Below, piece by piece: positions 2,362-32,505 of a DNA stretch of 55,556 bases. A program made the position numbers and the translations under genes. Below the pieces are notes generated by a model. The model made no database searches. It saw only the letters and a program-made list of their open reading frames with translations, and was not told where the DNA came from. Position 1 is the stretch's first letter, and each line of letters opens with the position of its first letter. The DNA comes from an uncultured Acholeplasmatales bacterium (lineage in GTDB: Bacteria; Bacillota_I; Bacilli_A; Acholeplasmatales; Anaeroplasmataceae), in the NCBI GenBank assembly GCA_944324805.1, contig CALUXS010000011.1:1-55556 (forward strand), read 5' to 3'.

Positions 2362-3195
2362 TTATTTAGTTATTTCCATAAAATTAGATATATTTAATCC
2401 TAATTCTTTTGTAAAAGCTTCAACATCAGCTACATCTTGGTTCCAAAGATTTTCAGGGTTATGAGCATCAGCTCCGATAACGATTTTTAAATCTTTGTAT
2501 TCTTTAGCAATTGTCCAAAATTCTTTTAAAGGATACAACCAATCACTGCCATTAACGCCATATTTACGTGAATTAGCTGGTCCATTAGCGTTTACTTCTA
2601 GGTAAACATTGTTTTTGATAGCTGCTTCAACAAGCATTCTAGTAACTTTTTCACAATGGCAATCGAATGTATGATTACCATTTTCATCTTTGTATTGAAA
2701 ATAAAATAAGTCAGGATGAACTAGACAATTAAAAATTCCTGTTTCCATACCCTTTATTGCAATATTTGCATAATCGTAAATAGTTTTATAATTAACATCA
2801 TCATAAGAATTTAACTCTTTACCATTTGATAGGAAATAGTGAATTCCTAGATTTAAATAATCAAGGTTAGCCTTTAAGCCAATGTAATATTCTTCATGAC
2901 CAGGAATGAATTCTGTTTCTAGACCACGATATATTTTAATATCTTTACTATATTTTGAAATTGCATCATCTAAACTAGGAAGATATATCTCGTAGTATTC
3001 GTTTAATTTCATATTTCTATGAATCCAGTTATACATGTATTCCTCATGACTCATAAAATCTTCAGGAACTGGTGCGTGATCAGACATTCCGATTTCTTTA
3101 AAGCCTAATTCAATTGCTTTTTTTATGTAATCTTCAGGCATTCCAATTGCATGATTACATAATTTTGTATGTGTATGATAATTTGCTTTTAACAT
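2362..3195 (-). CDS. Histidinol-phosphatase-type PHP hydrolase
   Basis: This 277-residue protein belongs to the PHP family (HisJ/HisK type), trinuclear-metal phosphoesterases that in many Bacillota dephosphorylate histidinol phosphate. The N-terminal metal motif NYHTHT and the following MSDHAPVP are typical. Further ligands are visible as GLETEF, NCLVHPDLF and the C-terminal IGADAHNP. The start is preceded by GAGGT at suitable spacing. No other his gene is in the window, so the true substrate may be another phosphate ester. It is transcribed alone from a region 3196-3240 that contains TATAAT-like sequence on the minus strand. Confidence 0.85.
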   Translation of the reverse strand: MLKANYHTHTKLCNHAIGMPEDYIKKAIELGFKEIGMSDHAPVPEDFMSHEEYMYNWIHRNMKLNEYYEIYLPSLDDAISKYSKDIKIYRGLETEFIPGHEEYYIGLKANLDYLNLGIHYFLSNGKELNSYDDVNYKTIYDYANIAIKGMETGIFNCLVHPDLFYFQYKDENGNHTFDCHCEKVTRMLVEAAIKNNVYLEVNANGPANSRKYGVNGSDWLYPLKEFWTIAKEYKDLKIVIGADAHNPENLWNQDVADVEAFTKELGLNISNFMEITK

Positions 3196-3313
3196 TTTAT
3201 GACCTCAATTCTTTTCCCCTAAGGGAACTTATATTATACACTATTTTTTATATAAGTCAAAATTATTATAACATATTTAAAAATATAGTGTTGTAAATTA
3301 TTTTTTACAATAT

Positions 3314-3338
3314 AAAAGCCTATTCTAAGATAGGCTTT
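3314..3338 (-). terminator. Terminator of the HIT gene
   Basis: Arms AAAGCCTAT and ATAGGCTTT are followed on the minus strand by a T-rich stretch, just after the HIT-gene stop. Confidence 0.8.
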
Positions 3339-3343
3339 AAAAA

Positions 3344-3739
3344 TTAAGCTAGTTTATTTTTTAATTCATCTAAATCAACTTTATTACCATGATCAGTAAA
3401 AGTTATTTTTAAATCATCATTTTCATAGCGAGGTAAAATATGTACATGGAAATGCTTTACTGTTTGTCCTGCTAACTCCCCATTGTTATTTAAAATATTG
3501 CAAGAACTAGCATTAAGTTTTGTAGTTATTTCTTTAGCTAACTTATGAACAACCTCTTGTAGATGTAAATATAAATCTAAAGGCATTGAGAAAATATCGT
3601 CATAGTGTTCTTTAGGTATAACTAAGGTATGACCGTATGTTGCTTGTGAAATATCTAAAATAGCAATTACCTTATCATCTTCATAAATTTTTTTACTAGG
3701 AATTTTTCCTTCATTAATTAAACAAAATACACAACTCAT
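3344..3739 (-). CDS. HIT-family nucleotide hydrolase
   Basis: This 131-residue protein has full HIT-family length. It starts with a CVFCLI zinc-type cysteine pair and carries the histidine triad HFHVHILP near residue 100 (H-x-H-x-H), where the middle histidine is the nucleophile. The motif GHTLVIPKEHY is also typical. Family members hydrolyse adenosine phosphoramidates or dinucleoside polyphosphates in the cytoplasm; the exact substrate cannot be read from sequence. A GGAGAA ribosome binding site precedes the ATG. It is a single-gene unit with its own terminator. Confidence 0.9.
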   Translation of the reverse strand: MSCVFCLINEGKIPSKKIYEDDKVIAILDISQATYGHTLVIPKEHYDDIFSMPLDLYLHLQEVVHKLAKEITTKLNASSCNILNNNGELAGQTVKHFHVHILPRYENDDLKITFTDHGNKVDLDELKNKLA

Positions 3740-8110: not shown

Positions 8111-9118
8111 CTATTTATAGTTGAAATATATGTTATTGTTTTTGAAACTAACCCGAGCTTTAGCTCCGCATTTTATTGGCATTGAAGGGGCAATGTGTCC
8201 TAAATCTATATCAAATAAAATAGGAGTATTTAATTCCTTTAAAATATCTATTACAGCATTATATTTATTTACGCCCATTATCTCTATATCACCACATAAT
8301 GGTCTTCCGAATAAGAAGGCTATACTTGTATCAAACCATCCTGCCTCTTTTAATTCAAATAATGCTCTTCTAATTTGTAAAGGATTTAAATCACATGCTT
8401 CTAAAAACCAAATAATTTCTTTGTCTTTAATAAAATTTTTCACATTATCATATTTAGTTCCACATAAATTTACTAAAACATCTAAGCATCCACCTAATAA
8501 TATACCAGTAAATGGCTTTTGATAGTTAAAAGGAGTAATTACTTTAGGTTCAGTTAGGTTTAAAGCACATAAAGGATTTTTTTCTTTATTAAAGCTTTCT
8601 TTTTCATATTTCTTATATCCTTTAAAGTTTTTTTCTCCTTGTATCATTCTTAAGGCATCACGATTATCTAAAATATTTCTTTTTGGATAAAAACTTGGAA
8701 AGTTTGGTCCATAAATAGTTACTAAATTACATAATGTAGTTAGTGTGAATGTTAAGTTCGTATTATCAGAAAAACCCATAAACCATTTTGGAGGAAGTGT
8801 TTTAATTTCTTCAAAGTTAATGAATGGTAAAATTTCATTCATTAATTCTCCACCACCAACTGAAATTATGATATCACTATTAGATTTATAGGCTTTCATA
8901 AATTCATTTGCTCTATTTTCAGGAGTATTTGAACTTACAATTCCGTCATTTTTAAAAATATTTTCTCCTTCAAATATAATATGTCCATTATGTTTAAATT
9001 TTTTTATTGCCTCAATTAATCTAGTTTTATAAGGCTCTGTTGTACAACCAAAACTTGGGGCAATTAGGTCAATTGTCATATTTGCAGTAATTTTCTTTGG
9101 TTCTTGCATAAAATTCAC
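8111..9118 (-). CDS. S66-family peptidase (LD-carboxypeptidase / MccF-like)
   Basis: This 335-residue serine peptidase belongs to family S66. LD-carboxypeptidases trim muropeptides, while MccF-type members cleave microcin C-like aminoacyl-nucleotides. The catalytic Ser is in MGFSDNT, the Glu in FLEACDLNP and the His in DLGHIAPS. The early DLIAPSFG and SVGGGELMNEIL motifs also match. The sequence looks closer to the MccF-like branch, but this is inference. It is a single gene between tRNA-Leu and a divergent operon. Confidence 0.88.
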   Translation of the reverse strand: MNFMQEPKKITANMTIDLIAPSFGCTTEPYKTRLIEAIKKFKHNGHIIFEGENIFKNDGIVSSNTPENRANEFMKAYKSNSDIIISVGGGELMNEILPFINFEEIKTLPPKWFMGFSDNTNLTFTLTTLCNLVTIYGPNFPSFYPKRNILDNRDALRMIQGEKNFKGYKKYEKESFNKEKNPLCALNLTEPKVITPFNYQKPFTGILLGGCLDVLVNLCGTKYDNVKNFIKDKEIIWFLEACDLNPLQIRRALFELKEAGWFDTSIAFLFGRPLCGDIEIMGVNKYNAVIDILKELNTPILFDIDLGHIAPSMPIKCGAKARVSFKNNNIYFNYK

Positions 9119-23516: not shown

Positions 23517-23547
23517 TTGAATAAACTTAATAATAGAGTGTCTTATA
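23517..23547 (+). promoter_or_regulatory. Shared upstream element, copy 1 (candidate ECF promoter)
   Basis: TTGAATAAA, 13 bases, TGTCTTATA. The same two boxes with the same spacing occur at 26806-26836 ahead of the sigma-factor operon. TGTC at the -10 position recalls the GTC-type -10 of ECF promoters. The leader here would be very short (start codon 17 bases after the second box). Confidence 0.6.
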
Positions 23548-23563: not shown

Positions 23564-26500
23564 ATGAATGATGTTGATAAGATTAAAAAAAGTTTTAAGA
23601 TGGGAAAAATGTTATTGCTATTCTATGTGATAACTCTTTTAATTAGCTGTTTAGCGTTAATTTACATAATATCTAATGATTTAATTAAATTTTTTCCTTA
23701 TCGTAGTTATGATAATGTAGAATTGATGCTTTTATCTTTTGGTTTAATTATATTTTTTCCTTCTTTTATTTTGTCATTAAAGAGTATAACAATTAAAAAA
23801 GTAGTAATATTAAGAAAATTATTCTTTTTTCAATTACCATACTTTGTTGGTTTTTCAATTGCTGGAATTATTCTTTATAAGAACATTATTTTTAATGTTT
23901 TAGCAATAATTATTTTTGTTTTTTTGTTGCTTGATTTATTTTTAATCATAAGAAGTAGAAAAAGTAATATATTTTATAGTAAAACTAAGAAAAAATATAA
24001 ACAAATAGAAAAAAGTAATTTAGAGGTTGTCATCAAAAATGAAAAAACACATGAATTACAAAAATTATATGATAATTTTGATTATCAAGGAGTTGTAAAT
24101 TTAGAAATTCCAATAGATTTAAATAAGGCGGATGAAGAAAATAGAAATATTAGTTATTACGATTCAAATTTCCTTTCTAATTTAGCAGGGAAAATTATAA
24201 GAGGATTTCTCTTAATAATTAGTTTAGGAATTCTTTATCCTTTTGTTAAGTGCATGAAAATTTCATATGAGATAAAACATACTAAATATGATGGTAAAAG
24301 CCTCTATTTTGATGGTAATGGACTTCAACTTATAGGTAAATGGATATTGTGGATGCTACTTTCTATTGTGACACTTGGTATTTTTTTGATTTTCATTCCT
24401 AATAAAATAACTAAATGGCGAGTGCACCATACTCATATTAAGGGAGTAGAAGAGAATAGCAGTCATTATGATGGATTTGCATTATCAAGATTTTTTAGAG
24501 GAGTATTAGGTTTTATAATTTCACTATGCACATTATTTATTGCTTATCCATTTGTTAAATGTTGGTTAATTAAATATCAATATAGAAACACTTATTACGA
24601 TGGTAAAAAGCTTTCTTTTTATGGTAAAGGTAGTAGATTATTTGGTAAATGGATACTATGGCTTTTTTTAGGGGTTATAACAATAGGAATATTTATCTTA
24701 TTTATTCCTGGACGTTTCAAACGTTGGACTATCAAAAATACTCATTTTGCTGAAAATGATACTGTATTTAAAGAAGAAATAGATATGTGTTATGGAAAAA
24801 GTAAGATTGTGTCAAATTTAATAGGAACAGCTTTAAAATTTGCAAGTTTAGCTGTTGTTGTTTTTTTACCAACTGCAATTTTTAATAATTATTTCACAAA
24901 CATTAATGATATTAATAAAATAAAAAGAATAATGGAAGTCAACTTATCGTATGATGGAGCAGTAGATAATCTTAAATTAAAAGAATATGAAGAAAATGTT
25001 TTATATAGTAAAACAGGATCAACAGTTACATATTTATATTTTGATGAAAGAAAAAATCTTATAGCAATAGAAATGAATGTAGATAAAGATTTAAATTCTA
25101 ATGGTGAAGTGAAAAATCTAAGAATTTTAACTCCACTTTCAGATATTTTAGAAGAAAACTTAATTTATGAAATTAATTATAAAGATGGTTCATATCTTAT
25201 AGCGCGAAGCAAAATTATTAATAAAACAAAGCTTGAAGAAAAATATGAAATAACTTTTAAAGATTTTTATGATAACAATCAAAAAATAGTAGTAAATCAG
25301 AATTACGGTATGTTAAAGGAAACTGTAGTTAAAGAGAAAATAACAGTTGAATACTATGATTCTGGATATTCACAAATTAGTGATTTAATGGTTGTCAAAG
25401 GAGAAGGTATTTTTGATGGTGACAACTTTGAATTATGCCCAAAAATAATTTTTAATGAAGGTATAACAGGTATAAAAAATATAGATTATTATAATTCTGG
25501 AACAAAAATGATTTTGCCAGATACTTTAGAATATATAGGGGAAAATTCATTTGTAGGAATGAAACAAGAGGAATTGATTTTACCTTCTAATGTTAAAGAA
25601 ATTGATGCTAAAGCTTTTTCTAATGTTGAAATATCGAAACTTTCAATTCCAGAAGGGGTTACTAAGTTAAATCAAATTTTTTATAGAAATTCAATAATAG
25701 ATGAATTAGTTATTCCAAATACAATTCAAACAATTGAAAGGGATGCTTTAAAAGATGTTAGTATCAAAAAATTAACGATACCATTCATTGGTGAAAGTAG
25801 ATTGAACCCTGATGGTATTAGTTATCTAAATTGTAATAAAGATAAGTTAGAGGAATTACATTTAACAGATGCTAAAATGATAAGCTCTAAAGCTTTTTCT
25901 AAATATAATAAACTCAAGTTAATTGAATTAAATGATGGTCTTGAAGAAATAGGTACTGAGGCTTTTTTAGATTTAAAACTTGATGAGTTAATAATACCAA
26001 ATGGCGTATCTAGTATACCTACAGGAGCTTTTTGTTATGCAGATATTAATAAGCTTATCTTACCTAAGTCACTGAGAAAAATTGAAGCAAATGCATTTGA
26101 AAATGCATATATTGATAAAATTATCTTTGATGAAGGTATAACAATTTTAACAGCTGAAAGTTTCCGATTTGCTAATATTGAAGAAATGATTTTGCCAAAT
26201 TCAGTTAAAAAGATAGAAACTAATGCTTTTTATAATGCTAATATTACTACGCTAACAATAAATTCAAACATTGAAATAATAGAAGATATGGCCTTACAAG
26301 AAGCAAGTATTTACTCATTGTCAATTCCTTTTATAGGTAATACTAAAGATGATAATGAAGGAATATTATATGATTTTGGGGTAGAAAGAACATTAAAGAA
26401 ATTAACAATTACAAACTCTAAAGTCATTAATTCTAATGTTTTAATAGATAATAAAGGAATGAATTATGAGGATATCAATGAAATTAATTTAGATGAGGGA

Positions 26501-26725
26501 GTAGAGGTTATTAGAAGATATGCTTTTATACTTCCAAACTGGTACTTCAAGCTACAAAATTTGTATTTACCTTTAAGTATTAAGACGATAGAGGAAGATG
26601 CTTTCAATGATTCGCTTCTTTATTTCACATATGCAGGAAGCAAAGAAGATTGGGAAAAAATAGATAATAAATGCGAAAGGCTTGATGAATTAGTTAAGAA
26701 AGGTAGCGTAACATTTTTAAAATAA
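23564..26725 (+). CDS. DUF898-like membrane protein with BspA-type leucine-rich repeats
   Basis: This 1053-residue protein starts with four or so hydrophobic helices (residues 10-125). Two copies of a YjgN/DUF898-like membrane module follow (about 205-290 and 310-400; each has ILYPFVKC or IAYPFVKC, then YDGK, then GKWILW). Another helix near residue 420-440 precedes a large, probably exported part. That part carries tandem LRR_5/BspA repeats (IPEGVTKLN, LPNSVKKIE, FENAYIDKI). It ends with the YAGSKEDWEKI motif common after BspA repeats. The function is unknown; its promoter element matches that of the sigma operon downstream. Confidence 0.85.
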   Translation: MNDVDKIKKSFKMGKMLLLFYVITLLISCLALIYIISNDLIKFFPYRSYDNVELMLLSFGLIIFFPSFILSLKSITIKKVVILRKLFFFQLPYFVGFSIAGIILYKNIIFNVLAIIIFVFLLLDLFLIIRSRKSNIFYSKTKKKYKQIEKSNLEVVIKNEKTHELQKLYDNFDYQGVVNLEIPIDLNKADEENRNISYYDSNFLSNLAGKIIRGFLLIISLGILYPFVKCMKISYEIKHTKYDGKSLYFDGNGLQLIGKWILWMLLSIVTLGIFLIFIPNKITKWRVHHTHIKGVEENSSHYDGFALSRFFRGVLGFIISLCTLFIAYPFVKCWLIKYQYRNTYYDGKKLSFYGKGSRLFGKWILWLFLGVITIGIFILFIPGRFKRWTIKNTHFAENDTVFKEEIDMCYGKSKIVSNLIGTALKFASLAVVVFLPTAIFNNYFTNINDINKIKRIMEVNLSYDGAVDNLKLKEYEENVLYSKTGSTVTYLYFDERKNLIAIEMNVDKDLNSNGEVKNLRILTPLSDILEENLIYEINYKDGSYLIARSKIINKTKLEEKYEITFKDFYDNNQKIVVNQNYGMLKETVVKEKITVEYYDSGYSQISDLMVVKGEGIFDGDNFELCPKIIFNEGITGIKNIDYYNSGTKMILPDTLEYIGENSFVGMKQEELILPSNVKEIDAKAFSNVEISKLSIPEGVTKLNQIFYRNSIIDELVIPNTIQTIERDALKDVSIKKLTIPFIGESRLNPDGISYLNCNKDKLEELHLTDAKMISSKAFSKYNKLKLIELNDGLEEIGTEAFLDLKLDELIIPNGVSSIPTGAFCYADINKLILPKSLRKIEANAFENAYIDKIIFDEGITILTAESFRFANIEEMILPNSVKKIETNAFYNANITTLTINSNIEIIEDMALQEASIYSLSIPFIGNTKDDNEGILYDFGVERTLKKLTITNSKVINSNVLIDNKGMNYEDINEINLDEGVEVIRRYAFILPNWYFKLQNLYLPLSIKTIEEDAFNDSLLYFTYAGSKEDWEKIDNKCERLDELVKKGSVTFLK

Positions 26726-26805: not shown

Positions 26806-26836
26806 TTGAATAAATAGGTTAGAAATGTGTCTTATA
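26806..26836 (+). promoter_or_regulatory. Shared upstream element, copy 2 (candidate ECF promoter)
   Basis: TTGAATAAA and TGTCTTATA are again separated by 13 bases. They lie 135 bases before the first gene of the lipoprotein/sigma operon, which fits autoregulation by the encoded sigma factor. The leader between the element and the start is A/T-rich. Confidence 0.6.
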
Positions 26837-26971: not shown

Positions 26972-28939
26972 ATGAAACGGATTTTGAGCTTATTTTTATT
27001 GATTTTTATTATATGTGGATGTAATGGTTCTAATGATAGTCAGTCAAATGAGAAGTTTGAGGATTTAGAACTACAGATTGAGGTAAAAGCCAATTTAATT
27101 TCTAACGAATATTTGTTAGAAGGAGATACTATTTCATTTATTTTTACTGCAAATAAATTAATTGAAAGTGTAATGATAAATGGTAAGTATTATATTCTAG
27201 TAGATGATAAGGTTGATTATCGTGTTCCTAATATAGATGAATTAAAAATAGATATTACTAAGATAAGAATTGCAGGAGTTATTTATGATTTATATAAAAC
27301 TTATGATTATAAAATAATTTCTAAAGCTGAATTGACAGAAATTAGTATAAATACAGATATCAAACCTAATGGTATAGGAATTAAATTAGAAAATTACAAT
27401 CACAACTTTCCTATTTATGTGCGTATAGTAAGTAGTGTTGATAATTTTATTAGTGATGTATTATATGAAGATAATCTATACTTTGACGATTTAAAAATAA
27501 ATAGTTTTTACGCAGTTAAACTATATCTTTTAAAAGAAAATGAAGAACACTTTGTTTTTAGAGAGATTGATGTTGTCACTAGTGACATATTAACTATATC
27601 AGAAACTAAGGTAGATCCATATGGATATTTATTAAAAGTAGAACCAATAAATGGGTTTAGTATTGATTATTATACATTTGGTGATAATAAATATGAATAT
27701 GAGTCAAATTTAATAAATGTAACAAAGCCAAAAGGGAAAGATGAATATTATGATTTAGTATTTTATGGAACTTGTAATGGAAAGAGTGCTAGCTATCATA
27801 CAAGTTTATATTTTGATTATGTTTCTAGTGAGGGTGATTTTGAAATTGAAATTTCAGAATATTCGACAGAATATGTAATTAATGTTATTTCTAATTATGA
27901 TTATCGGTTATATCAAACATATGAATTAAATATTTATTTAGGTGACGCATTATTAGATTCTATAAATAGTAATTACTATAGCTTAAAGGATTTTTATTTT
28001 GATAGGGAATACGTCATTAGTGCTACTATAAGTTTTATAGATTTTGAAACCTTAGAAACAAAAACAAAAACTAAGAATATTACTTTTAAAACTAAAAGTT
28101 ATTATGAAGGAAATAATGAATTTATTAGCATTAGCGAAGATCAAGGAGTATTTATTGTAAAAAATTTAGCACCTCATGATTTAGAAATATATTATATAGA
28201 AGTATTCTTTGGAACTGAGCTTGTTAAAACCACAACAAGCTTAGTAATATCTTCATTAGATGCTGGTAAAGAGTATATTATTAAAGTTCATTATTTACTA
28301 AATTTACATAATGGATTAGATTGGCAGGAAAATAGTGAAGTTTTTGTTATGAGAACATCCTATATAGAACCTAATTATGAAATAAAATATGATGCAACGT
28401 ATGGTATGGTAAATTACGAAATAGTTGGAGATGATATAAACTCTCTAATAATTGAAAAAGAAGTTAGATTATATGAAGACTCAGTTCTTTTAGATAAAAA
28501 TGCTAATTTTATAGGTACTTTTTCAAATTTAGATTATCAAAAAGATTACTATATTTATTTTTATTATAAATTCTATTCTTTAGGAGTTCAGGAAAATATT
28601 ATTAGGACATTTCCAATTAATGTTACTAAGCCTTTAGATGAGCCGGATTTTAATGTTAATTTTGATTCTGAAAAATCAGTTTTAGAAGTTATAAGCAGCG
28701 TAGAATATGACTATAATGTTGTAATTAATAAAATAGAAGAGTTGTTGTTTAATTTTCCTGTTGATGTAAAACAAGAGAATAACAAAATATATTTATCTAA
28801 TTGGCCATTAGAAGAATTAAGTAAATTCACATATGAATTTGATTTGGATGTTGAATATCAATATAAAGGTAAGGACAAAAAATATAATTTAACATTCTAT
28901 TTAATGTATGAAGGTGGGGTGTGGGATTTGTTATGTTAG
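26972..28939 (+). CDS. Lipoprotein with FN3-like domains, sigma operon gene 1
   Basis: This 655-residue protein has a lipoprotein signal (MKRILSLFLLIFIICGC, lipid Cys17) and is otherwise soluble, beta-rich and exported. Near residues 45-110 it carries a segment with VMINGKYY and later DITKIRIAGVIYDL, which resembles the first domain of the two other envelope proteins of this operon. Further downstream are several FN3-like modules with Y-x-I/V-x-V strands (KEYIIKVHYLLNLHNG). It overlaps the sigma gene by seven bases. It is probably the outside-facing component of an envelope-sensing system (inference). Confidence 0.85.
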   Translation: MKRILSLFLLIFIICGCNGSNDSQSNEKFEDLELQIEVKANLISNEYLLEGDTISFIFTANKLIESVMINGKYYILVDDKVDYRVPNIDELKIDITKIRIAGVIYDLYKTYDYKIISKAELTEISINTDIKPNGIGIKLENYNHNFPIYVRIVSSVDNFISDVLYEDNLYFDDLKINSFYAVKLYLLKENEEHFVFREIDVVTSDILTISETKVDPYGYLLKVEPINGFSIDYYTFGDNKYEYESNLINVTKPKGKDEYYDLVFYGTCNGKSASYHTSLYFDYVSSEGDFEIEISEYSTEYVINVISNYDYRLYQTYELNIYLGDALLDSINSNYYSLKDFYFDREYVISATISFIDFETLETKTKTKNITFKTKSYYEGNNEFISISEDQGVFIVKNLAPHDLEIYYIEVFFGTELVKTTTSLVISSLDAGKEYIIKVHYLLNLHNGLDWQENSEVFVMRTSYIEPNYEIKYDATYGMVNYEIVGDDINSLIIEKEVRLYEDSVLLDKNANFIGTFSNLDYQKDYYIYFYYKFYSLGVQENIIRTFPINVTKPLDEPDFNVNFDSEKSVLEVISSVEYDYNVVINKIEELLFNFPVDVKQENNKIYLSNWPLEELSKFTYEFDLDVEYQYKGKDKKYNLTFYLMYEGGVWDLLC

Positions 28940-29439
28940 AAGATAAAATCTTAGTATATAGATTGAAAAATGGCGATGAATCAGCATTTGATAAACTATA
29001 TTATAAATATGCGCCTTTAATAAAATATATTATTTATGACATAACAAAAAGAAGTGATGTTATAGAGGATATTTGTCAAACTGTATTTATGAAGCTATGG
29101 GAAAATATAAAAAATTTTAAAGGTGGAAGTTTTAAATACTATCTTATTCAAATTGCTAAAAATGAGTCTAAAAATTATTTACGTTCGAGACAAATAGAAG
29201 ATAAATATCTAGAAAATTTAGATTTTTTTACTTTATATAACTTAGATACTGGGATTTGGCAACAGGTAAGAGATAAACTAGATAAAACGGAGCAAAGAAT
29301 AATAATACTTCATTTTATTTATGGTGTTAGTTTTAGTGAAATAGCTAATATCATAAATATAAAAAAAACCACATGCTTTTATATTTATAAAAAGGCATTA
29401 GCAAAAATGAAACAATATTATAAAGGAGATGAATGTTGA
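28933..29439 (+). CDS. ECF-type RNA polymerase sigma factor
   Basis: This protein of about 168 residues has the sigma-70 region 2 (DESAFDKLYYKYAPLIKYII, then DICQTVFMKLWENI) and region 4 (LDKTEQRIIILHFIYGVSFS, then EIANI) of extracytoplasmic-function sigma factors. Region 3 is absent, as expected. ATG at 28933 is preferred to GTG at 28921; it lies inside the stop of the upstream lipoprotein gene. The stop overlaps the next start (TGATG). Its regulator is probably the membrane protein encoded next. A candidate target promoter is shared by its operon and the 23564 gene. Confidence 0.93.
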   Translation: MLEDKILVYRLKNGDESAFDKLYYKYAPLIKYIIYDITKRSDVIEDICQTVFMKLWENIKNFKGGSFKYYLIQIAKNESKNYLRSRQIEDKYLENLDFFTLYNLDTGIWQQVRDKLDKTEQRIIILHFIYGVSFSEIANIINIKKTTCFYIYKKALAKMKQYYKGDEC

Positions 29440-30707
29440 TGAGAAAATTAAAAAAACTAATGAAAAATGACCTTAATGCTATTTCATCAACATCAGAATT
29501 AGCAAAAATAAAAGAAAATATTGTTTTTAATAAAAAGAAATCACCATTAATTTTTATGGGTAGCGTGACTTTTTTAACTATACTTTTAGGAAGCATAATT
29601 ATATTATTTTTAGGGCTTAGAACAAAGGTTTCTTTCTTAGGAATGGAAATAGTAAGAAATAATAGTTTAAAATCTGTGAAAGATTCGAGCATAATTGTAG
29701 AAGAAGCAAAAGAATATTATGCGAAACCTGGGGAAGTAATAACATTAGAACTTAATTTTAACAATGAAAATTATTATGATATTGTATCATTTGTTGTAAG
29801 TGGAACACCATATACTAGTTATATGTTTAATGATGGCTCTAACTATAAAACTATTTATGTTGACTATCAAGTTCCTAGTGTGTCTGGCACCTTTTTCATA
29901 TCAGTATCGGAAATTAAGTATATAGATGGCACGAAAATTAAAAACGTAAAAATGGAAGGAAATGATACAGTTGAAATTGGTATCATGTATGCAAATTGTG
30001 ATATTGAAATAGAGAATTTTAGAAGTGATGTAACTAGTATAGCATTTGACATTAAACAAAACTTACCTAAAGAATTGCTTGATGACATAGAATTATTTAT
30101 TTATGAAAAAGATACATTAATAGATAAATTTACGATTAAAGAGTCATATGTAGTGACCAATTTAAAGCCTGGAACTATATATAAATTAGAAATAAGTGGT
30201 ATTGTCGACTTATTAGATGGTAAAGGGAAATATAAACATTATTTCCTAGAAAAAGAAGTTAGTACCAAATTACCTTTTTCATTATCAGAAATAGAAATTG
30301 GTAACAATTATGCAGATTTTTCCAAGTTACCAGCAACGGTATATTATGAAGGAAAAGAAGTGATAAGACTAGATAATTTAGATGAAAATGAAGTTTATGA
30401 AGTGTTAATAACGTATTCTTACAATAATACTTTATATGAATATTATTATTATTTTTCTCCAAGTAATAAGGAATTACCAACTATATCTTTTGATGCGTTA
30501 GTAAAACTTGATAGTGGAGGATATCTTTTAACTTTCACTGCGGACAAAAAATATGATTATTATGTTAAGGAAAATAAATGTAATCTTATCAATGATACAT
30601 ACGTGATCACTATTCAAGATATTATAGATTTAAAAGTTTCTGTTTATTTAGATAATGAATTTATAGGAGATGTTCAATATGAAAAAAATAGGAATAATTT
30701 TATTTAG
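29439..30707 (+). CDS. Anti-sigma-like membrane protein
   Basis: This 422-residue protein has a basic cytoplasmic N-terminus of about 30 residues (MRKLKKLMKNDLN), one hydrophobic helix (about residues 33-52) and a long exported domain. This single-pass layout directly behind an ECF sigma gene fits an anti-sigma factor, though no zinc-binding HxxxCxxC motif is present and the cytoplasmic part is short. The exported part begins with FVVSGTPYTSYMF and SVSEIKYIDGTKI, like the flanking lipoproteins. ATG at 29439 is favoured over 29433 by spacing from AAGGAG. Confidence 0.75.
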   Translation: MRKLKKLMKNDLNAISSTSELAKIKENIVFNKKKSPLIFMGSVTFLTILLGSIIILFLGLRTKVSFLGMEIVRNNSLKSVKDSSIIVEEAKEYYAKPGEVITLELNFNNENYYDIVSFVVSGTPYTSYMFNDGSNYKTIYVDYQVPSVSGTFFISVSEIKYIDGTKIKNVKMEGNDTVEIGIMYANCDIEIENFRSDVTSIAFDIKQNLPKELLDDIELFIYEKDTLIDKFTIKESYVVTNLKPGTIYKLEISGIVDLLDGKGKYKHYFLEKEVSTKLPFSLSEIEIGNNYADFSKLPATVYYEGKEVIRLDNLDENEVYEVLITYSYNNTLYEYYYYFSPSNKELPTISFDALVKLDSGGYLLTFTADKKYDYYVKENKCNLINDTYVITIQDIIDLKVSVYLDNEFIGDVQYEKNRNNFI

Positions 30708-32505
30708 CATAATGTTATTGTTTGTAATGGTTTCTTGTAACAAAGAAACAAATCAAGTTGAAGAGGGAAATGTAAAATTTAGGGATGTTTTCATCTCGTT
30801 GCAAGAAAATAATTATAATCATTATTCGGTTAATAATACAAATCAGGAAGATCAGTATATAAAACCAAATCAAAAATTCTATTTGCATATAAATCTTGAT
30901 AATCCTGAGTCTAATGAAATAATTTCTGTTATTATAAATGGTGTCAAATATCAATCTTTCAATTTTGAAAAAGAATCTACTAGTGAAGAAATAATCATAG
31001 AATTAGAAAGTAAAGAACCAGGAATTGAATATTATCAGGTTGAGGAAATAAAATACATTCAAAACCTTGATATTTTTAATGTTATATTTAATTTTAATGA
31101 TGCATTAATAAAAGTTGTAGTAAGTAGAGTTGATGTACCTAAGATTTATGTAGAAATAGATAATGCACAAGAAAAAATGTTAACTATAAAATATCGTATT
31201 ATTTCTGATTTAATCTATAATGATAAATATCGGTTTATTTTAATGAAAGATGGCCAAATAGTTAAAATGGCAGATGTATCTGACTTTAATTCACAATTAA
31301 ATTTTTATGATTTAGAAGAAGGAAAACAATATGACTTATTAGTTGTCTGTTATGCAGATATGCTTGATGGTAATGGTGAGGTGGCGATGACAATTTATAA
31401 TGAATCATTCTTATCATATTCACCAATAACATTTCAAAACATTATCTGTTATGATGATAAGATAACATATAATTTAAAATTTGATATAGAACCTTTAAGT
31501 TATAAAGTACTTTTAAATGATGATATTGATATAACAAATACTAATGAAGTTGAAGGGTTAGAATCAGATACAAATTATAAATTAACAATATTATTTAAAA
31601 GAGTAAATGGTAAAGAAGAAAGAGTAGATTTATTCGTTAGAACAAAGTCTAATGTAATACCTGAAATTAACAATTTCCTATTAGAACCAAATAAAAACAG
31701 TATTAAATATCAAATTCAATTTAATGATATGTCTAAGCTTGAGGAAGCATCTTTGAAAATTTATGATAAAAATGACCAATTAATTGAAGAAACTAAAAAT
31801 TTTTCTGGTGAAGTTGATGGTCTGTTAAGTAATAATATTTATAAGTTTACCATTATTTATTCTTATTACATAAATAATGAAAAAAAGACTATTGAATCAA
31901 CTAAGTATGCAATAACATTAAATGTAAAAAAACCTGTATTTAAGCCAATTATTGTGACTTTTGATGATCATATTTATTGTGGATATGATCTTGATGATGT
32001 AGATGGTACGGTTAAATATACTAGAATATATTTTGCAGGTTCTAGTAAATACGAAACGTTACTAAATGATGCAAATAATTGCCTCAAAGAATTAGAAAAG
32101 AATTCAGAATATACTATTATTTACAAACTTGATGTTGATTATAATGATGGTGCAGGAATAAAAACATTAATTTATAGTTATAAAGTAAGGGCTATAGAAA
32201 GTATAAAACAATTAGAATGCGATATTAGTCCTAGTTCAAATCAAGTGAATATAAGTATTAGTTCTATAAATTATTTAAATAATCCTAGTCTTAAAATAGA
32301 AGAAATAGAATTATATAGGGTGATAAGTAGTCTTGATATGGAATACGTTGGTTCATACAATATAGATAATAATAACTCACTTACTATAGATTCTTTAGAT
32401 ATTAATCAGGAATATTCTATCAATATAAAATATTCATATAATTCATACTTAGATGGTATAAAGTTTTATAATAATGTCTATGGTTTTACTACATGTGAAG
32501 TCTAA
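30679..32505 (+). CDS. Lipoprotein with FN3-like domains, sigma operon gene 4
   Basis: This 608-residue protein has a lipoprotein signal (FVMVSC, lipid Cys20) and begins inside the preceding gene (29-base overlap, AGGAG at 30665). The first exported domain has SVIINGVKYQSFNF and VEEIKYIQNLDIF, closely matching the anti-sigma-like protein. Later repeats carry a recurrent turn, as in YADMLDGNGE and LDVDYNDGAGIK, equivalent to VDLLDGKGKY in its neighbour. The operon ends at a long hairpin terminator. Function is unknown; partner or competitor for the sensor domain is inference. Confidence 0.85.
   Translation: MKKIGIILFSIMLLFVMVSCNKETNQVEEGNVKFRDVFISLQENNYNHYSVNNTNQEDQYIKPNQKFYLHINLDNPESNEIISVIINGVKYQSFNFEKESTSEEIIIELESKEPGIEYYQVEEIKYIQNLDIFNVIFNFNDALIKVVVSRVDVPKIYVEIDNAQEKMLTIKYRIISDLIYNDKYRFILMKDGQIVKMADVSDFNSQLNFYDLEEGKQYDLLVVCYADMLDGNGEVAMTIYNESFLSYSPITFQNIICYDDKITYNLKFDIEPLSYKVLLNDDIDITNTNEVEGLESDTNYKLTILFKRVNGKEERVDLFVRTKSNVIPEINNFLLEPNKNSIKYQIQFNDMSKLEEASLKIYDKNDQLIEETKNFSGEVDGLLSNNIYKFTIIYSYYINNEKKTIESTKYAITLNVKKPVFKPIIVTFDDHIYCGYDLDDVDGTVKYTRIYFAGSSKYETLLNDANNCLKELEKNSEYTIIYKLDVDYNDGAGIKTLIYSYKVRAIESIKQLECDISPSSNQVNISISSINYLNNPSLKIEEIELYRVISSLDMEYVGSYNIDNNNSLTIDSLDINQEYSINIKYSYNSYLDGIKFYNNVYGFTTCEV

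Follow-up and report, generated by a model that had tools for sequence, protein, structure and literature searches.

In the SigI/RsgI system of Clostridium thermocellum, the ectodomain of RsgI6 is 57% identical to Xyn10D, and sigma-I6 activates the Xyn10D promoter (PMC4711584). We analysed a four-gene module for which this pair is the closest precedent, located at positions 26972 to 32505 of a 55,556-nt stretch of DNA from an uncultured Acholeplasmatales bacterium (contig CALUXS010000011.1 of assembly GCA_944324805.1; hereafter the window). The window corresponds to contig 11 of a genome of 1.83 Mb that is 96% complete, and those of its features that are given below with coordinates all lie on the forward strand. 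The module encodes an upstream lipoprotein (U), a sigma factor of the extracytoplasmic function (ECF) type, a single-pass membrane protein proposed to be an anti-sigma factor (T) and a downstream lipoprotein (D). New relative to RsgI6/Xyn10D would be an ECF/anti-sigma pair in which the sensor mimics a lipoprotein and surface proteins form the predicted regulon. A first-pass annotation of the locus had stated that no described system has this layout; in the light of RsgI6/Xyn10D (PMC4711584) the statement was too strong. Literature searches for this layout found nothing matching.

The likeness to SigI/RsgI lies in a single-pass (here putative) anti-sigma factor with an ectodomain related by homology to a secreted protein, in activation of that protein's promoter by the sigma factor and in autoregulation of the operon, the last two here by prediction (PMC4711584, PMC12203970). 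The differences are that the present sigma factor is of the ECF type, that T has no match to RsgI_N or RsgI_M, that the shared part is an array of a domain named X here and fn3-like repeats and not an enzyme or a carbohydrate-binding module, and that the lipoprotein gene belongs to the same operon. The SigV/RsiV system also pairs an ECF sigma factor with a single-pass anti-sigma factor bearing an ectodomain; RsiV of Bacillus subtilis binds lysozyme through this part, and its removal is the work of signal peptidase and RasP (PMC4183432). Unlike RsiV, T has neither DUF4163 nor DUF3298, which were not found in a Pfam search, and its adjacent lipoproteins carry the same ectodomain. The RpoE-RseA-RseB system resembles the locus in having a sigma factor, an anti-sigma factor and a third envelope protein encoded in one operon. 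To our knowledge, RseB is not a homolog of the RseA ectodomain, nor does it form a lipoprotein array. Finally, Dma/Das (ECF21) of Bacteroides combines an ECF sigma factor with a membrane anti-sigma factor, and its main targets are its own operon and surface systems; Dma, however, ends in a beta-barrel, and the parts of that report drawn on here describe no ectodomain shared with a lipoprotein (PMC13088901).

By sequence comparison, T (29433..30707) and D (30679..32505) are homologous outside the membrane. The window's own pair aligns by BLASTP with an E-value of 8e-10 (T residues 96-266 to D residues 60-234), and profile-profile comparison gives an E-value of 1.3e-26 over 344 columns. Corresponding values for the T and D proteins of paralogous modules range from 5e-35 to 3e-41 over 405-459 aa, and seven positions are invariant when 18 sequences of T proteins and lipoproteins are aligned. 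Chance resemblance between AT-rich, beta-rich proteins could be invoked given their biased composition; the profile score and the consistency of the 18-sequence alignment, with its invariant residues, refute it for T and D, and it stands only for the first domain of U, whose motif similarity is not significant. As an account of the locus we consider it extremely improbable.

The shared unit consists of a membrane-proximal beta domain of about 90 residues, X, followed by fn3-like repeats. In T, X spans residues 95-184 (29715..29984), as delimited by homology, alignment and AlphaFold; a first fn3-like domain follows at residues 188-280 (29994..30272), and two further beta domains complete the ectodomain, whose blocks are mostly predicted at pLDDT values (AlphaFold confidence) of 85-95. 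D has a lipoprotein-type signal sequence, Cys20 and a 40-residue linker leading to X (residues 59-150, 30853-31128, placed by homology to T), followed by fn3-like repeats. None of T, D and U matches a Pfam or NCBIfam family above cut-off, the fn3 family PF00041 scoring 15.9 and 15.5 bits against a gathering cut-off of 25. Single domains predicted in T and U nonetheless have the fn3 fold, fitting onto solved fn3 structures at a root-mean-square deviation (rmsd) below 3 A and Z above 9: VIA-align superposes the fn3-like domain of T on 2rb8 with Z 9.1 and an rmsd of 2.9 over 87 residues, and the fn3-like domain of U gives Z 9.6 and an rmsd of 2.5 over 86 residues. The turn noticed in the first-pass annotation as recurring in the three proteins (VDLLDGKGKY and its variants) is not a one-off: LDGxG is a repeated element that ends the fn3-like repeats.

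That annotation had also proposed that all three envelope proteins share one exported domain. This is borne out for T and D; U joins them through its fn3-like repeats, and the pair of motifs cited for its first domain finds no support. U (26972..28939) has a lipoprotein-type signal sequence, with a lipobox recognized by eye, one N-terminal Ig-like domain and several fn3-like ones; its AlphaFold model is all beta, with a mean pLDDT of 82.7. The C-terminal repeats (residues 314-541) match D with a profile E-value of 4e-12. The first domain (VMINGKYY/ITKIRIAGVIYDL) gave at best an E-value of 0.02 over 16 columns against X in profile comparison, and iterative hidden Markov model searches for a direct kinship of the two were likewise negative. 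In the AlphaFold models, strand order and hairpin placement of the two domains agree, so that the first domain of U is possibly a diverged copy of X.

The sigma factor (28933..29439) matches Sigma70_r2 (E 1.8e-15) and Sigma70_r4_2 (E 3.4e-6) above the curated Pfam cut-offs and scores 84 bits with TIGR02937 against a cut-off of 42.9. With regions 2 and 4 little separated and a length of 168 aa, in a class whose members range from about 160 to 200 aa, it classifies on these matches as an ECF (group 4) sigma factor. The four genes do overlap, as the first-pass annotation had it, by 7 nt (ATGTTAG) between U and sigma, 7 nt between sigma and T and 29 nt between T and D. T starts with a short basic N-terminus, residues 1-43 being assigned to the cytoplasmic side, and its single hydrophobic segment covers roughly residues 44-62. 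A sigma-coupled gene, a single transmembrane helix and a cytoplasmic N-terminus make up the anatomy of a transmembrane anti-sigma factor, and T would be expected to bind and inhibit sigma. Two helices are predicted in its cytoplasmic tail. When the tail was searched against 698 open reading frames (ORFs), the best non-self matches were mostly partners of ECF sigma factors. Two families were considered for T and rejected. Residues 1-43 contain no His or Cys, so T is not a zinc anti-sigma factor, in which a His-x3-Cys-x2-Cys motif is expected; and T has no match to RsgI_N or RsgI_M and is partnered with an ECF-type sigma factor, which sets it apart from the RsgI family, although it may work like RsgI. 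One gene of the genome encodes a site-2 protease, which makes removal of T by intramembrane proteolysis possible, as for RsiV (PMC4183432).

The order U-sigma-T-D is found in five genomes, the window's own and four related Acholeplasmatales genomes (G033, G031, G037 and G032; records L130-L133), three of which are recorded as uncultured Acholeplasmatales metagenome-assembled genomes (MAGs). Module neighbourhoods differ among these genomes, except in G031 and G037, where the module follows fusA-tuf. A paralogous module made of sigma, T and a giant lipoprotein (1429-1481 aa) is present in the genome under study (contig 6), in G031 and in G033, and a decayed copy is found in G034. A lone lipoprotein of G033 has the same flanking genes as the whole module of G032, which indicates that the module was lost or moved. 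In all intact modules, those of other families and of Clostridia included, T lies immediately 3' of sigma. This constancy argues against T being an ordinary surface protein co-transcribed with sigma, its shared ectodomain reflecting simple gene duplication. So do the transmembrane helix and cytoplasmic tail that T has in place of a lipoprotein anchor, and the fact that the same slot in relatives holds transmembrane proteins with other ectodomains (PF09826 Beta_propel, RsgI_M). The N-terminus of T, short and weakly conserved outside the genus, speaks for such an ordinary protein, and sigma-T binding is a prediction; we nevertheless regard this reading as improbable.

ECF sigma factors recognise two-part promoters and often regulate their own genes. 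A predicted ECF promoter, TTGAATAAA-N12-GTGTCTTAT, is present at 23517..23546, 18 nt 5' of a gene (23564..26725) for a membrane protein with DUF898 repeats (Pfam E 8e-12) and a C-terminal BspA-type leucine-rich repeat (LRR) region (LRR_5, E 5e-49). A second predicted ECF promoter lies at 26806..26835, 137 nt 5' of U, and predicts autoregulation of the operon. Both the motif and the DUF898-LRR gene are outside the coordinates covered by the first-pass annotation, which did not mention them. The sequence TTGAATAAA-N12-GTGTCT has exactly two matches in the 1.83-Mb genome, 5' of U and 5' of the DUF898-LRR gene. The core motif occurs once in G033, where the ortholog of the DUF898-LRR gene adjoins the module and has the same promoter motif upstream. 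In a shuffle test, none of 3000 trials yielded such a two-block 14-base word shared across all three of these upstream regions. A general form, TGAATA-N16-RTCTWAT, has 18 matches across eight genomes of the genus; its reversed control has 6. Ten of the 18 are intergenic and lie 15-137 nt 5' of a start codon (counting a site on contig 4 of G037 by its fuller locus); the genes they precede encode mostly LRR or large surface proteins, among them DUF898-LRR proteins and large LRR_5 or List_Bact_rpt lipoproteins. Of the 13 sites that had not been used to define the motif, 5 are in promoter position (binomial probability 7e-6, or 2e-4 with a doubled background). Altogether, these data suggest that sigma controls the U-sigma-T-D operon and the neighbouring DUF898-LRR surface protein, both through predicted promoters.

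A wider regulon sought with TTGAATAA-N13-GTGTCT, allowing two mismatches, was rejected, the matches showing no excess over the reversed control. A further motif site occurs in G037 just 3' of D, at the contig end, and a separate motif, TGG(G)AAA-N16-18-TCTTAT, is found 5' of the sigma-B unit in four genomes. Homologs of the DUF898 protein in the genus vary from about 416 aa, without LRR, to 1593 aa; in G032, one is encoded right after tuf, where the sigma module sits in G031 and G037.

Little is known about how bacteria that lack a peptidoglycan wall sense the state of their surface and adjust it. A domain search of the genome returned no PF00905 transpeptidase, in keeping with a cell that has no wall; we take the organism to be a wall-less, gut-type bacterium. 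We give about an even chance to the proposal that the module is an ECF sigma/membrane anti-sigma switch for surface proteins, in which T is a truncated lipoprotein copy that monitors the surface layer or a ligand. The short cytoplasmic N-terminus of T would hold sigma at the membrane, while the exposed part would display a truncated copy of the module's surface lipoprotein, with its membrane-proximal X and fn3-like domains. As T and D both have X as their first folded domain past the anchor, T is likely to be placed among D-type lipoproteins, on which it would report through lateral X-X contact or a common ligand. A change in contact or ligand would then cause T to be removed via the site-2 protease route, and the freed sigma would transcribe the DUF898-LRR gene and its own U-sigma-T-D operon. 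Were T indeed to read the lipoprotein that it imitates, the module would be a compact circuit of surface homeostasis for which a promoter and target genes are predicted, and it would show that copying a surface protein can give rise to the anti-sigma sensor that controls it.

X occupies this first position in every T and D examined. Between the closest genomes, no other domain of T or D is as well conserved (69% identity for X of T, compared with G033, and 52% for X of D). The first-pass annotation had hypothesised that the lipoproteins compete with the anti-sigma factor for a ligand, or oligomerise with it through the shared domain. The two properties of X favour a job near the membrane, and the membrane-proximal location fits a predicted lateral contact between T and the lipoprotein better than the capture of a distant ligand. 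The linkers between anchor and X have similar lengths within modules (T 34 and D 40, 38 and 44, 40 and 49, 57 and 71 residues), those of D being somewhat longer. Such similar heights above the membrane, together with the conservation of X, are what one would expect if the module served homotypic surveillance only, D or other X-lipoproteins binding T through X and protecting it, much as RseB protects RseA. T would be cleaved when the layer is depleted, pulled or mis-assembled, and sigma would restore the surface proteins. The lack of PF00905, consistent with a wall-less surface, and the recurrence of domain sharing with an unrelated domain (RsgI_M) accord with this alternative. On the other hand, similar linkers could be inherited, the X-X interaction is a prediction, and the Clostridia modules L134 and L136 show no adjacent D; we view the idea as tentative. 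Alternatively, T and D could be independent receptors of a common ligand, an external polymer or a glycoprotein of the host, with no contact between them, ligand on T switching on more D and LRR surface proteins. By analogy this has the better precedent, as the GH10 domain of RsgI6 resembles Xyn10D, with its promoter activated by sigma-I6 (PMC4711584), and the predicted regulon proteins bear LRR_5 and List_Bact_rpt, domains that often mark surface proteins. Against it stands the membrane-proximal position of X in both proteins, an odd one for catching a distant polymer; we view a sensor of shared ligand alone as equally tentative.

Several observations weigh against the proposed switch as a whole. 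The cytoplasmic tail of T is short, is modelled with low confidence by AlphaFold and shows little similarity to the tails of other ECF partners (profile E 1.3e-5 over 20 columns). Neither a site-1 protease nor a cleavage site could be identified. The promoter motif was first spotted by eye; it is missing from the U operon of G033, and in G036, where no homolog of sigma was detected, a site (contig 2, L241) precedes the gene for a 2014-aa LRR lipoprotein. In G035, sigma is present as an orphan, with T missing.

Across the Bacilli, X-type lipoproteins commonly occur with no sigma partner; within family f16, for instance, a lipoprotein of 1000-2800 aa recurs in a single conserved neighbourhood. 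T-like proteins with the same ectodomain, encoded directly 3' of an ECF sigma gene, are found in a different family of the order (f4; L117) and in MAGs of Clostridia (L134 and L136, the upstream frame of L136 being only partial). A gene for a large X-bearing lipoprotein lies just upstream in L117. The T proteins of Clostridia have an unrelated-looking cytoplasmic N-terminus, and that of L134 carries an LRR_5 region at its C-terminal end. In the tree, the Clostridia T proteins cluster with a clostridial lipoprotein (support 100/99). A single clade of all T ectodomains was rejected by the approximately unbiased (AU) test (p 0.0075); one restricted to Acholeplasmatales was not (p 0.28), and module-wise clades of T with D, as expected from local duplication, were neither supported nor rejected. 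Given this rejection and the far wider spread of the lipoproteins, at least two recruitments are the simplest account: the lipoprotein ectodomain was probably recruited by anti-sigma factors at least twice, subject to the rooting of the tree. The lipoprotein would thus probably be the widespread, older part and the anti-sigma factor the bearer of a copy, reversing the direction implied by the first-pass annotation, in which the lipoproteins share the sensor of the anti-sigma-like protein.

In three relatives (L071, L179 and L181), PF23750 RsgI_M is common to the ECF-linked membrane protein and the lipoprotein encoded beside it, with pairwise E-values of 2e-11, 4e-20 and 2e-15. In another, the sigma partner has a beta-propeller (PF09826 Beta_propel) and no neighbour that shares it. 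Sharing is therefore recurrent in these ECF modules, and not universal. It is conceivable, if rather speculative, that T is an evolutionary mimic of the lipoprotein it controls and inserts by homotypic contact among the surface lipoproteins of a wall-less cell, which would in this way count or inspect its own coat, and that the same principle arose repeatedly from domains unrelated to one another (X plus fn3, and RsgI_M).

An X-type lipoprotein gene adjoins the RsgI_M module of L179 and L181 on the opposite strand. On contig 101 of G149 (L118/L117), the frame directly 5' of sigma and T encodes a lipoprotein of about 4694 aa that carries X and over 20 fn3-like repeats. In L029, a 149-aa ORF (3169-3618) just 5' of sigma B resembles by eye a degenerate sigma paralog, with no sigma match in Pfam. 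The signal sequence of the G031 D protein (L031, around 8815-8953) is complete in frame only with a start upstream of the first listed one; this start is a codon other than ATG, GTG or TTG, possibly a sequencing error or a rare start.

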